In this document: positions 24,962-29,606 of the stretch, one piece after another
Layout of the letters: the number at the start of each line of letters is the position of its first letter
Numbering within the stretch: the stretch's first letter is position 1
Source: Streptomyces luomodiensis
GTDB taxonomy: Bacteria; Actinomycetota; Actinomycetes; Streptomycetales; Streptomycetaceae
Assembly (NCBI RefSeq): GCF_031679605.1
Contig: NZ_CP117522.1
Coordinates: 6,262,001 to 6,326,000 of the forward strand
DNA: 64,000 nucleotides
Direction of reading: 5' to 3'
Notes under the pieces: model-generated
Database searches by the model: none
What the model was told of the DNA's origin: nothing
The model's input: the letters and a program-made list of their open reading frames with translations, nothing else
Translations under genes and position numbers: made by a program

Positions 24962-26485
24962 CTAGGCTGCCGCGTCGGGGGCCGACTGCCGCTGAGCCGT
25001 GCGGCGCGCCGCACGGCCGGTCGGACGGTCCGCAGTGGTACGGCTGCGCCGACCGCGAGACGCGGGGGCGCCGCGCTCGGAGCGCTTGTCCACCGGTGCC
25101 GTGAGGACGACCGGGATGCCCGACGGAGCCCGCGCACCGGTGATGCGGTTCAGTTCCGCTTCACCCGAGCGGACCTGGGTGGTCCGAGGGCGGATTCCGG
25201 CGTCCGACATGAGACGGGTCGTGCCGCGGCGCTGGCTGGGCGTCACCAGGGTGACGACGAGACCGGACTCGCCGGCGCGGGCCGTGCGGCCTCCCCGGTG
25301 AAGGTAGTCCTTGTGGTCACTGGGCGGGTCCACGTTGACCACCAGGTCGAGGTTGTCGACATGGATACCGCGTGCCGCGACATTGGTCGCCACCAGGACC
25401 GTCACATGCCCCGTCTTGAACTGGGCCAGGGTCCGGGTACGCTGCGGCTGCGACTTTCCACCGTGCAGTGCGGCGGCCCGTACCCCGCTCTCCAGCAGGT
25501 GCCTGGTGAGCTGGTCGACGGCACGCTTGGTGTCCAGGAACATGATCACTCGGCCCTCGCGCGCCGCGATCTCCGTGGTCACCTGATGCTTGTCCGTGCC
25601 GTGCACATGCAGTACGTGGTGCTCCATCGTGGTGACCGCAGCCGCGGACGGGTCAATGGAGTGGACCACCGGGTCGATCAGGTACCGGCGGACCAGAAGG
25701 TCGACGTTGCGGTCCAAGGTGGCTGAGAACAGCATCCGTTGCCCCTCCGGGCGTACCTGCTCCAGCAGTGCTGTGACCTGCGGCATGAAGCCCATGTCGG
25801 TCATCTGGTCGGCTTCGTCCAGGACGGTGATGCCGACCTGGTCCAGGCGGCAGTCGCCCCGCTTGACGAGGTCCTTCAGCCGGCCAGGCGTCGCGACGAC
25901 GACCTCCGCCCCGCCACGCAGCGCACCGGCCTGCTTGCCGATCGACATCCCACCGACCACCGTGGCCAGCCGCAGCTGCACGGAGCGGGCGTACGGAGTG
26001 AGCGCATCGGCGACCTGCTGTGCCAGCTCCCGGGTGGGCACCAGCACCAGCGCCAGCGGCTGCCGGGGCTCGGCTCGCCGGCCGGCCGTACGGGCCAGCA
26101 GCGCCAGGCCGAAGGCGAGGGTCTTGCCGGAACCGGTGCGCCCGCGGCCGAGTACGTCACGACCCGCGAGGGAGTTCGGCAGGGTCGCCGCCTGGATCGG
26201 AAACGGTGCGGTCACGCCTTCGGCGATGAGCGCGGCCAGCAACTGCCGGGGCATCTCGAGATCAGCGAACGCCTCGACGGCGGGGAGCGCGGGGCTGATC
26301 GTTATTGGCACGGCGAACTCCCCCCGCGGTGCGGCGGGGCGGTCCCCGTAACCGCGTGAACGGCTCGGAGTGCCGGAGCGTTTGGAAACCGTAGTCGCCA
26401 AGCGGCTGCCGCCCTTTCGGGAACCCGAACTGCCGGTACGGGCATGGTCACGGGTGAATCGGTCGTTCGTACGTGTGCGGTTCAT
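24962..26485 (-). CDS. DEAD-box RNA helicase
   Basis: ATP-dependent RNA helicase of the RhlE/CsdA type. The 507-residue protein has a basic Arg/Ser-rich head (about 1-60), then the core. Visible motifs: Q motif region FADLEMPRQLLAALIAEGVTAPFPIQ, motif I GRTGSGKT, Ia VPTRELAQQ, TPGRL, motif II VLDEAD, motif III SATLD, VATNVAARGIHVDNLDLV and motif VI HRGGRTARAG. A basic Arg-rich tail for RNA contact follows. The ATG at 26485 has GAGGAAGG just upstream; that ribosome site is buried in a 12-bp hairpin. Being next to a cold-shock gene suggests a role in unfolding RNA at low temperature. Confidence 0.94.
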   Translation of the reverse strand: MNRTRTNDRFTRDHARTGSSGSRKGGSRLATTVSKRSGTPSRSRGYGDRPAAPRGEFAVPITISPALPAVEAFADLEMPRQLLAALIAEGVTAPFPIQAATLPNSLAGRDVLGRGRTGSGKTLAFGLALLARTAGRRAEPRQPLALVLVPTRELAQQVADALTPYARSVQLRLATVVGGMSIGKQAGALRGGAEVVVATPGRLKDLVKRGDCRLDQVGITVLDEADQMTDMGFMPQVTALLEQVRPEGQRMLFSATLDRNVDLLVRRYLIDPVVHSIDPSAAAVTTMEHHVLHVHGTDKHQVTTEIAAREGRVIMFLDTKRAVDQLTRHLLESGVRAAALHGGKSQPQRTRTLAQFKTGHVTVLVATNVAARGIHVDNLDLVVNVDPPSDHKDYLHRGGRTARAGESGLVVTLVTPSQRRGTTRLMSDAGIRPRTTQVRSGEAELNRITGARAPSGIPVVLTAPVDKRSERGAPASRGRRSRTTADRPTGRAARRTAQRQSAPDAAA

Positions 26486-26493
26486 GCGGAACC

Positions 26494-26520
26494 TTCCTCG
26501 ATGCGGCACGCATCAAGGAA
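26494..26520 (-). promoter_or_regulatory. Hairpin sequestering the helicase ribosome binding site
   Basis: On the minus-strand mRNA, twelve bases (26520-26509) pair with 26505-26494 around a 3-base loop, with one G-U pair. The 3' arm contains GAGGAA, the core of the helicase Shine-Dalgarno sequence, and ends 8 bases before the AUG. Translation would require the hairpin to open. Confidence 0.65.
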
Positions 26521-26702
26521 TTCCAGCGGTGCTGAGCAGCGCAGAGAATCGCAAGAACGGGCCATGAAATGCGACAGCGGATTCGGCCGGAGCGGAATAC
26601 TCACGGGTTGGGGCGCTGAAAAGGTGACGCGAAGCGGGCCGGGGAGGCCGACGCGTCGAGTGTGGCGTGATGGGGGGACCGCGCCATGCGGTGCAACGGC
26701 TC

Positions 26703-26729
26703 GGGGCCCGCACCCAAAGTGCGGGCCCC
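26703..26729 (-). terminator. Terminator after the cold-shock gene
   Basis: A perfect 11-bp stem (26703-26713 with 26719-26729) and 5-base loop lie 25 bp past the cold-shock stop on its coding strand. Confidence 0.78.
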
Positions 26730-26753
26730 AGCTGCGAACTATGCGCGTCAGGA

Positions 26754-26957
26754 TCAGGCGGGAACGATGTTCTCGGCCGTCGGGCCCTTCTTGCCCTGGG
26801 CGATGTCGAAGCTCACCTTCTGGCCTTCCAGGAGCTCGCGGAAACCTTGGGTGGCGATGTTCGAGTAGTGGGCGAACACGTCAGCGCCGCCACCGTCCTG
26901 CTCGATGAAGCCGAAACCCTTTTCCGCGTTGAACCACTTCACGGTGCCAGTAGTCAT
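26754..26957 (-). CDS. CspA-family cold-shock protein
   Basis: A 67-residue single OB-fold protein that binds single-stranded RNA and DNA and melts RNA structure. It carries both nucleic-acid-binding motifs: KGFGFIEQD (RNP1) and VFAHYSNI (RNP2), after [12 protein letters not shown]. The full-length match to the 7-kDa actinobacterial Csp family is clear. GAAGGAGAT precedes the ATG by 8 bp. The long leader holds a second hairpin. It has its own terminator, upstream of the helicase leader. Confidence 0.97.
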
Positions 26958-26984
26958 GTGTCATATCTCCTTCGGGGCAGTGTC

Positions 26985-27010
26985 CGGAGTCCCGCACTGT
27001 GCGGACTCCG
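26985..27010 (-). promoter_or_regulatory. Leader hairpin of the cold-shock gene
   Basis: The arms 26985-26996 and 27000-27010 pair along 11 bp with one bulged base and a 3-base loop. The hairpin lies about 12 bases before the GAAGGAGAT ribosome site in the mRNA. Cold-shock mRNAs commonly have structured leaders that control stability and translation with temperature. Confidence 0.6.
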
Positions 27011-27408
27011 CGTCGCCGCGATGATTGCCCCGTCCGGGAAATGACCGGAAATACAAAAGAACTCCCATTGGCATGGAAAGCCAGTGAGGGCGCTTGAAGT
27101 CTTGGGAACCACAACTGCAACTGGGATCAACAGTAGCACGGCACATTCGGCTACGCGCGGTAAGCCATTACGCTCCGTTGTTGTCTCAGAAATACTCATC
27201 GCGCGCTGCGGCGATTTCTCACTTCGCGACCACAGATATGGGTCCGCCCGGAACACCTGCTCGACCGGTTGACGGCCGGCCGTGGCGTATCGGCGGTGCC
27301 TCGTCTCGGAGCAGTCCCAGGCCCGCCGTCGCTGAACGTATGCATGACCCGCGGGACGCGGGTAACCCGGCTGATGGCCCACCCGCGGACAAGGAGGGGA
27401 ACAACGCC
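27011..27408. other. Divergent promoter region, cold-shock gene and oxidoreductase
   Basis: About 400 bp with AT-rich tracts (for example around 27045-27075 and 27110-27200) fit promoter and long leader of the cold-shock gene on the minus strand. The right end serves the plus-strand oxidoreductase. No credible gene is visible. TACTGT on the minus strand near 27131 is a possible -10. Confidence 0.4.
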
Positions 27409-28035
27409 GTGCGCATAGGAATCATCGGAGCGGGCCGTATCGGCTCGACCCTGGCCCGCCACTTCGCCTCGATCGGCTACGAAGTGGCGATCGCCAACTC
27501 CCGCGGCCCCGACACCCTGGCCGGCCTGGTGGCCGACATCGGCGGCCCGATCCGCGCGATGACCGCCGAGGAGGCGGCCCGGTTCGGCGAGGCGGTGGTC
27601 GTGTCCATCCCCTACGGCCGCTACCGGGAGCTGCCGACCGAGCCGCTGCGCGGCAAGGTCGTCATCGACACCTGCAACTACTACCCCGAGCGGGACGGGC
27701 ACGACCCGGATCTCGACGGCGACGCCACCACCTCGAGCGAGAAGATCCAGGCCCACACCGGCGCCAACCTGGTCAAGGCGTTCAACGCGATCTACTGGGA
27801 GAACCTGCGCGACCACGCCCGCCCCAAGGGCGCTGCCGACCGGGTGGCCATCCCGCTGTCCGGCAACGACGAGGAGGCCAAGGCCGCGGTGGCCGGGCTG
27901 ATCCGCGACATCGGCTTCGACCCCGTGGACGCCGGACATCTGGGCGAGGGCGGCCGCAAGCACCAGCCGGGCAGCCGCGTCTACGCCACCGAGATGTCGT
28001 CCGCCGAGACCAGCGCCCTGCTGCACGTCGCCTGA
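27409..28035 (+). CDS. NADPH-dependent F420 reductase-like protein
   Basis: The 208-residue protein begins with a Rossmann dinucleotide fold, VRIGIIGAGRIGSTLARHFASIGYEV, and continues with ANSRGPDTL, VVVSIPYGRYRELP, VVIDTCNYYPERDG and NLVKAFNAIYWENL. This is the pattern of the F420H2:NADP oxidoreductase family (coenzyme F420 reductases and related NADP-binding proteins). The true substrate may differ, since many short homologues are uncharacterised. AAGGAGGGG lies 9 bp before the GTG, which fixes the start. It appears to be monocistronic and is followed by a convergent peptidase gene. Confidence 0.85.
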   Translation: MRIGIIGAGRIGSTLARHFASIGYEVAIANSRGPDTLAGLVADIGGPIRAMTAEEAARFGEAVVVSIPYGRYRELPTEPLRGKVVIDTCNYYPERDGHDPDLDGDATTSSEKIQAHTGANLVKAFNAIYWENLRDHARPKGAADRVAIPLSGNDEEAKAAVAGLIRDIGFDPVDAGHLGEGGRKHQPGSRVYATEMSSAETSALLHVA

Positions 28036-28130
28036 TTCAGCTGTTCCGCTTCGGGGCGAGCTTGCTCAGTTCCCCCTTGACCCGTAGCGGCTCCGGGCGG
28101 CCGGGGGTGGTCGCTTCTTCCGGCGTCGGG

Positions 28131-29606
28131 TCAGGGCTTCTCCGGCTTGCCCGCGCCGTACAGCCAGACGTCGAAGAGGCGGGTCAGATCCTTGCCGGAG
28201 ATCCGTTCGCACAGGTCGGTGAACTGTTTGGTGTCCGCGTTGCCGTGCCGGTGGTCCGTGAGCCAGGTGCGGAGGATGGTGAAGAAGGCCGTGTCGCCCA
28301 CGGTCCGGCGGAGCTTGTGCAACGCCATCGCGCCGCGGCCGTAGACGGGCGGGCCGGAGACGCCGGCGACGCTCGGGGGATCGGCGGGCGGGAAGGCCCA
28401 GATGCCGTCGCTCTCGGCGTCGCTGCCGGTGTAGAAGTCGTCGAAGATCTGCTGGGCGGTGCGGCCCCCGTGGTCCTCCTCCCACAGCCACTCGGCGTAG
28501 GTGGCGAAGCCCTCGTTGAGCCACATGTCCTTCCAGGTCCGGGGGGTGACCGAGTTGCCGAACCACTGGTGGGCCAGCTCGTGCACGACGAGCGTCCCGT
28601 CCGGGGCGGCGTCGAAGTACGGCTTGGTCTGGGTCTCCAGGGCGTAGCCGAGGCCGGGGAGGTGGTCGACGATCGCGCCGGTGGAGGAGAAGGGGTACGG
28701 GCTGCGGAAGGTGCGGCTCTCCCAGGCGATGACGTCGCCGACCTGGTCGCCGATGTGCGCCGTGCTGACGCCCTCGACGGGGTCCACGGCGACGTACCGG
28801 GGCAGCGCCGTGCCGTGGGCGGCCGTGGCGCTGACGTCGAAGCGGCCGATGGCGACGGTGGCCAGATAGCCGGCCATGGGCTCGCCGGTGTGCCACCGGA
28901 AGGTGGTGCGGTCTCCTTGCGTCTCCTGGCGCTTCAGCTCGCCGTTGGACACGGCGGTGTAGCCCTTGGGCACGGTGACGGCGATGTCGTAGGTGGCCTT
29001 GTCGGAGGGGTGGTGGTTGCCGGGGAACCAGGTCATGGAGCCGGTCGGCTCGCCGAGGGCCACGGCGCCGTCGTGGGTGCGGAGCCAGCCCTCCTGCGCG
29101 CCGTCCTCGCCCGTGAGGGTCTTCGGCTCGCCGTCGTAGACGACGGTGGTGGTGAAGGTGCGGCCCTTGGGGAGGGCCGTGGCGGGGGTGAGGATCAATT
29201 CGGTGCCGCTGCGGGCGGCCTGGGCGGGGCGGCCGTTCACCGTGGCCTTCCGCACCCGCAGCCCGTCGAGGTCGAGGTGGAAGGAGCTCAGGGCGCGGGT
29301 GGCGCGGGCGGTGATCCGGGCGGTGCCCTCGAGCCGGTGGGAGGTGGGCGTGTAGTCGAGGGCGAGCCGGTAGCCCCGCACGTCGTAGCCGCCGTTGCCG
29401 AGCCGGGGGAAGAGCGCGTCGCCGACCCCCGCCGAGCCCGGCCGGGCGGCGGTCGCCCCATGGACGTCGTCCTGCGCCCCGGCACCTCCCGTGCAGCCCG
29501 CGCACAGCGCGAGCAGCAGCAGCCCGCCGAGCAGCGCCGGCAGCCTGCCCGGCAGGGCGCCTGAGCGGTGGCGAACGGACGCGCCCGCCCCGGTTGGCCT
29601 GGTCAT
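28131..29606 (-). CDS. M1-family zinc metallopeptidase, putative lipoprotein
   Basis: An exported aminopeptidase-like enzyme. The 491-residue protein has a signal segment LPALLGGLLLLALCAGC with a lipobox-like CAGC, an N-terminal beta domain (VRGYRLALDYTPTSHRLEGT onward) and the M1 catalytic helix HELAHQWFG. WLNEGFATYAEW supplies the third zinc ligand. It is shorter than full-length M1 aminopeptidases and lacks the large C-terminal helical domain, as in many Streptomyces secreted members. The Cys lies at the expected place but the -3 residue is Cys rather than Leu, so lipidation is uncertain. An earlier in-frame start at 29672 is possible. Confidence 0.9.
   Translation of the reverse strand: MTRPTGAGASVRHRSGALPGRLPALLGGLLLLALCAGCTGGAGAQDDVHGATAARPGSAGVGDALFPRLGNGGYDVRGYRLALDYTPTSHRLEGTARITARATRALSSFHLDLDGLRVRKATVNGRPAQAARSGTELILTPATALPKGRTFTTTVVYDGEPKTLTGEDGAQEGWLRTHDGAVALGEPTGSMTWFPGNHHPSDKATYDIAVTVPKGYTAVSNGELKRQETQGDRTTFRWHTGEPMAGYLATVAIGRFDVSATAAHGTALPRYVAVDPVEGVSTAHIGDQVGDVIAWESRTFRSPYPFSSTGAIVDHLPGLGYALETQTKPYFDAAPDGTLVVHELAHQWFGNSVTPRTWKDMWLNEGFATYAEWLWEEDHGGRTAQQIFDDFYTGSDAESDGIWAFPPADPPSVAGVSGPPVYGRGAMALHKLRRTVGDTAFFTILRTWLTDHRHGNADTKQFTDLCERISGKDLTRLFDVWLYGAGKPEKP

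Follow-up and report, generated by a model that had tools for sequence, protein, structure and literature searches.

What does a stable hairpin do over the ribosome binding site of a DEAD-box RNA helicase gene, and what could open it? The question is raised by a locus in a stretch of 64,000 nt of the Streptomyces luomodiensis genome (the window). An earlier note had described here a 12-bp stem with a 3-base loop, which encloses the Shine-Dalgarno (SD) core GAGGAA 8 nt before the helicase start codon and has a cold-shock protein (csp) gene as neighbour, and had proposed a thermoswitch or an autoregulatory switch. We combined RNA folding, covariation analysis of the two arms, searches of related genomes and a comparison with the literature.

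The hairpin and its surroundings

All features of this locus lie on the minus strand, and positions are those of the window. The hairpin (26494-26520) reads UUCCUUGAUGCG-UGC-CGCAUCGAGGAA from 26520 to 26494, that is 12 pairs including one U-G, closed by the triloop UGC. The RNA of these 27 nt folds at -17.0 kcal/mol (z = -5.7, with none of 200 shuffles as good), and the outer U-A pair is open in its minimum free energy structure. The 3' arm holds GAGGAA, the part of the SD stretch GAGGAAGG (26492-26499) that lies in the stem, and this core ends 8 nt 5' of the helicase ATG (26483-26485). Sequence and fold therefore confirm the stem, loop and spacing first described. The apical motif CGUGCCG (26504-26510) is near-constant outside the SD arm (columns 27-34 of alignment A3, below). 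The stem by itself is unremarkable because raw stem matches of this size are frequent. Stems of at least 12 pairs with a loop of 3-8 nt have a chance rate of 0.75 per 64-kb strand (20 Markov resamples), and the real window contains 16 on the plus and 15 on the minus strand, several of them being alternative loops at one place and many being GC-rich. It is the placement over the SD sequence and the conservation that carry the case.

The gene behind the hairpin (24962-26485) codes for a DEAD-box RNA helicase of 507 aa with the DEAD motif, the helicase core and a conserved MNRTRTND-like start. It stays below the NCBIfam cut-offs in the best 25 of 36 families, and its top match, DbpA, scores 306.9 bits against a cut-off of 524, so the subfamily was not assigned. 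Upstream lies the csp gene (26754-26957, 67 aa, by family match), followed by a conserved terminator-like hairpin without a U run (26702-26730), about 140 variable nt and a conserved block of about 110 nt. According to a conservation profile of 91 loci, this block runs from the box GGCCCGUUCUUGCGAUUC (26546-26563, about 60-78 nt 5' of the ATG) via the hairpin to about 10 codons inside the helicase gene. The early helicase codons seem to be constrained at the nucleotide level too, as 54 of the 82 rows with Thr at position 4 use the rare codon ACA for it, compared with 47 of 2631 later Thr codons (104 rows). A scan of 26400-27400 for promoters of the sigma70-like type found none. As a separate observation, the terminator-like hairpin after csp is strongly conserved, and read-through there may further control the helicase.

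Several other structures and reading frames were considered for the block. In the RNA fold, the stem can be extended by GGAA (26521-26524) pairing with UUCC (26488-26491) around a GG bulge, and the covariation support for this optional lower stem is marginal (8/300 and 11/300). An alternative fold places a small hairpin, GGUUC-CGCAU-GAACC (26479-26493), beside the main stem with the AUG in its loop; it is conserved, but was rejected with 1 double-changed cell against 0.2 in shuffled alignments (62/300). A hairpin between GATTC of the box and GGAAT, which would rival the lower stem, gave mixed results (0/300 for paired share and pair types, 72/300 for double-changed cells) and was not retained. 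A four-way junction of the upstream box with codons 5-9 was likewise dropped, since its high RNAalifold probability came without a clear covariation excess (0, 5 and 5 double-changed cells in its helices vs 0.1, 5.4 and 2.9 shuffled). A GTG start within the loop, giving an ORF of 515 aa, was discarded because, by eye, the GTG is missing where the loop is CGC. A conserved upstream ORF ending at the helicase ATG was also rejected. In the window such a frame could begin with an ATG at -79 and reach the helicase start in an ATGA overlap, but inspection by eye showed no such ATG in most of the loci examined and frame-breaking indels in some.

Conservation, distribution and gene context

Covariation between the arms, whose absence the earlier note had listed among its refuting outcomes, was found in the stem core in each of three data sets. 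Alignment A1 comprises 67 of 70 rows (64 distinct; L040, L065 and L066 left out) collected by DNA similarity only. In A1, 91.8% of cells are paired and 42 cells are double-changed, compared with 15.7 after shuffling (0/500), the best pair being composed of U-A 24, C-G 22 and U-G 16. When A1 was slid by +1 as a control, six pairs also had a double change, but in 7 cells vs 42, with 49.1% paired. A set of 106 rows gave 38 double-changed cells in the core helix vs 0.8 (0/300), and its three loop-adjacent pairs show no covariation (76.4% paired vs 76.1 shuffled). Alignment A3 covers three families with 62 of 64 rows (L117 and L173 left out), the 64 being hand-picked for variety from about 190 loci; here 23 cells are double-changed vs 9.6 (0/500), whereas the number of double-change pairs (143/500) and of pair types (75/500) is not significant. 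On a tree of 159 helicases, pair -30/-14 underwent at least 21 pair-type changes. A tree-aware test gave 2-5 supported independent contrasts per pair among the pairs listed, too few for significance, and pair -26/-18 leaned the wrong way (0.6 vs 1.4). In divergent genera the arms differ, yet on reading the sequences CCTTCCTC often stands opposite GAGGAAGG. Judged from these alignments, pairing in the stem core is mostly kept where the arms change.

DNA matches to the leader were found in 83 of 101 genomes of the genus, often with 2-4 per genome, and the window's own genome holds one copy by this measure. Within the family, the covariance model R1 matched 101 of 121 genomes, representing 15 of 17 genera, and within the class 21 of 197; R2, built from three families, found matches in 42 of 345 genomes of the class at a threshold of E 1e-4. 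Both models were built on supplied structures, and some later rows came from R1 matches, so these counts lean towards the structure. The pattern occurs in at least 120 named stretches, and the 80 titles listed name Streptomyces, one Wenjunlia and one actinobacterium. Among twelve R2 places examined in the class, csp and helicase genes were both present at four (L404, L412, L413 and L415), csp alone at one (L414) and neither at seven. Class-wide conservation was rejected on the basis of these seven places and the 42 matching genomes; the leader is patchy beyond the family. Matches were seen in 8 of 80 genomes of family f17, with a helicase at 7 and csp at 5 of 9 places, and in 10 of 61 genomes of family f37, with both genes at 9 of 10 distinct places.

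A DEAD-box helicase gene lies downstream at 170 of 178 loci (166 of 174 distinct) and a same-strand csp gene upstream at 165 of 178 (161 of 174 distinct), so that the csp neighbour seen in the window is near-constant. Four loci that lack a helicase (L107-L109 and L165) seem to be chance matches, and at L035 and L038 no long reading frame follows from the leader's start codon. Covariation, distribution and context are those of a conserved structured RNA specific to helicase genes. As far as comparative sequence analysis goes, the leader is real, masks the SD sequence and occurs family-wide in front of DEAD-box helicase genes linked to csp.

At two further loci, L040 and L059, the leader and the first helicase codons stand before other ORFs (judged by eye, one for a CBS-type protein and the other for an alpha/beta hydrolase); these are perhaps natural leader captures.

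All 20 family genomes without an R1 match still have DEAD-box helicase matches, although in two of them (G109 and G162) the best is only 52-55% identical. Of 30 loci examined from these genomes, 24 have csp upstream. By eye, hairpin-like variants are present at some (e.g., L345, L364 and L368), and no hairpin was recognised at several others (e.g., L348, L353 and L357-L359). At the csp-helicase locus L066 the 3' half is retained, the 5' arm is gone and the SD sequence is predicted to be exposed. Such loci indicate that the hairpin is not indispensable.

The loop CGNGCC is near-fixed across the three families while some neighbouring pairs vary (C32 and C33 in all 62 rows, G28 in 60, C27 and G30 in 58). 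Another leader, also conserved and about 200 nt long (L180:1100-1345, equal to G000:C1:5329097-5329342), precedes the gene of a paralogous DEAD-box helicase (56% identical) in the window's own genome; it was matched in 40 of 41 genus genomes with one copy each. This second leader carries GCGUGCCG at a hairpin tip with GGAAGG just behind (20 rows), and no csp match was found near it in 21 loci. The resemblance between the two helicase leaders was judged by eye. The 5' arm of the SD-masking hairpin is itself near-constant across paralogues.

Searches with Rfam 15 gave no match over the hairpin in 25000-29500 of the window up to E 1, nor over the hairpin or the paralogue leader in six further loci up to E 0.5. 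Weak matches to the cspA thermoregulator (RF01766) were seen near csp genes, all below the gathering score of 78 bits: L120 1598-1936 (-), 36.9; L197 1067-1421 (+), 30.1; L017 1004-1416 (+), 24.0; and window 26700-27126 (-), 19.1. Perhaps they reflect mere coding similarity. In the open-licence literature we found no published description of this element, though print at large may differ; a study that searched S. avermitilis, among others, for novel RNAs uses 'helicase' once and 'DEAD' never in its main text, as far as available (PMC11109978).

SD masking and competing explanations

SD accessibility was compared at 151 loci with both genes, loci having been dropped if they were without both genes, without a clear start or identical in sequence, along with one without an SD sequence. 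At 30 C the predicted probability of being unpaired is 0.002 (median) for the helicase SD and 0.575 for that of csp; the helicase SD is the less accessible one at 143 loci, and falls below 0.2 at 126 loci vs 4 for csp. It exceeds 0.2 at 25 loci and 0.5 at 7. The helicase SD is also weaker, with a median longest match of 4 nt vs 6 for csp. These predictions bear out the proposed masking, and the hairpin very likely masks helicase translation. In S. coelicolor, higher G+C upstream of the start and leaders of low free energy accompany low translation efficiency, according to the part of the source available (PMC4895711).

The thermoswitch that was initially suggested did not hold up in the model. 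From 4 to 70 C, GAGG of the window hairpin is unpaired with a probability of at most 0.021 (at least 97.9% paired), and only the last two A of GAGGAA fray more on heating. The SD sequence does lie in a helix, as in an RNA thermometer, but this helix, in the model, does not open within the growth range, and across 170 loci the median stability is -13.3, -11.6 and -10.3 kcal/mol at 30, 37 and 42 C, respectively. That heat melts the hairpin and frees the SD is consistent with the place of csp and helicase genes in temperature stress, with a minority of weak hairpins (the range at 37 C is -18.9 to -0.9 kcal/mol, using a fixed cut that misfits loci with indels) and with a report that at 42 C six csp genes of S. 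coelicolor are translated more efficiently and have fewer transcripts, section 13 of which names no such helicase (PMC6009599). But the csp SDs are predicted to be open, and a csp heat response would not need such a hairpin. A cspA-like two-fold switch is conceivable, although no second fold has strong covariation support. We regard a thermometer as the least probable of the explanations. Hardly more credible is a DNA operator, that is an inverted repeat bound by a dimeric transcription factor, for which one could cite the conserved imperfect palindrome with several copies per genome and the excess of A-C over G-U at four of six non-core pairs (14 vs 2, 11 vs 0, 11 vs 6 and 81 vs 15), which is unexpected for RNA pairing. 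A-C mismatches dominate at pair -26/-18 (81/158). However, an operator does not account for the near-fixed position over the SD at the start codon, and in the six core pairs of 159 loci there are 58 G-U cells vs 8 A-C, which points to an RNA rather than a DNA palindrome. Of the remaining non-core pairs, -25/-19 also has G-U above A-C (20 vs 8) and one has neither.

Two other explanations accept the RNA hairpin and assign it a different role. It might be a constant attenuator, which only fixes a low helicase-to-Csp ratio in a shared transcript and regulates nothing. This possibility, which we consider unlikely but the most serious competitor, agrees with the predicted state of the 151 loci, where the csp SD is open and the helicase SD mostly closed, and with the csp-helicase loci at which no hairpin is recognisable. 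Yet a fixed attenuator would have no need for the loop CGNGCC to persist as the helix changes, nor for conservation of the upstream box and the early codons within a block of about 110 nt. Alternatively, another trans factor could open or cleave the hairpin, such as a small RNA that base-pairs to the 5' arm or RNase III. The near-constancy of the 5' arm across paralogues favours such a factor, and RNase III is known to free a masked SD in adhE of E. coli; however, the stem is short for that enzyme. No helicase of this type is named as a target in the accessible part of an S. venezuelae study of RNase III and RNase J (PMC12096830). We hold a trans factor of this kind to be doubtful, more so than the attenuator.

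A default-off leader and its relatives

The reading we prefer, at a probability of about 0.55, is a default-off cis-acting helicase leader in which Csp and/or the helicase act on the hairpin, leading to regulation or autoregulation. The leader would hold helicase synthesis off by default and release it according to the RNA-remodelling state of the cell. Abundant Csp and/or helicase would act on the hairpin, with the constant loop CGNGCC as the proposed recognition site, and the protein would either open the helix (a positive or feed-forward loop) or clamp it (a negative loop). From established work (de Smit and van Duin), initiation is expected to stay very low when the SD lies in a helix as stable as this one, at -12 to -17 kcal/mol. 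Going by the sequence evidence, regulation by helicase or Csp is our best guess, autoregulation of the helicase is plausible, and we lean slightly to opening over clamping. Positive feedback is an odd sign for a stress helicase, and the conserved loop could equally serve another protein, a small RNA or a nuclease.

Transcript levels bear on the weight of this control. In wild-type S. coelicolor, the csp gene SCO4684 reads 3087 and the next gene, the helicase SCO4685, reads 16; changes in topA increase both readings (+4.08/+3.43 and +3.00/+2.67 log2), in the data available from that source (PMC6637917). The helicase transcript is low relative to csp, already about 190-fold under it in these data, so that much of the control may precede translation (PMC6637917). 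SCO3731/3732 and SCO5921/5920 are, we presume from numbers and annotations, further csp-helicase pairs.

A default-off leader of this type would extend the cis-regulatory RNAs of Streptomyces by an unlisted, family-wide one and provide a candidate default-off translational element for these organisms. The translation of an RNA-remodelling enzyme would itself hinge on RNA unwinding, and helicase autoregulation becomes testable by simple reporters. A broader and rather speculative extension, which we rate as improbable at present, is that helicase leaders of actinomycetes form a family around a common recognised loop, RCGYGCCG, through which free helicase or Csp is sensed. The csp-linked helicases would then mask their SD, while the single-copy paralogue would set the same loop just before GGAAGG. 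If so, one RNA sensor would couple several RNA-remodelling enzymes.

Among known systems, the DEAD-box helicase DeaD of E. coli is similar in that it reportedly regulates its own synthesis by way of its mRNA, via mRNA stability and Rho-dependent termination (Ojha and Jain 2020, RNA 26:1160, by title); it differs in that DeaD is not known to have an SD-masking hairpin. CrhR of Synechocystis is likewise a temperature-linked RNA helicase with autoregulated expression, but its control is by transcript and protein half-life, and the words 'UTR' and 'Shine' are absent from the available main text (PMC3485376). The cspA thermoregulator is also a cold-shock gene leader with weak matches near csp genes here, but these matches do not cover the helicase hairpin and none attains the gathering score. 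ROSE and fourU thermometers share the SD-masking hairpin; theirs melt within the physiological range, whereas the helicase hairpin described here, in the model, does not.
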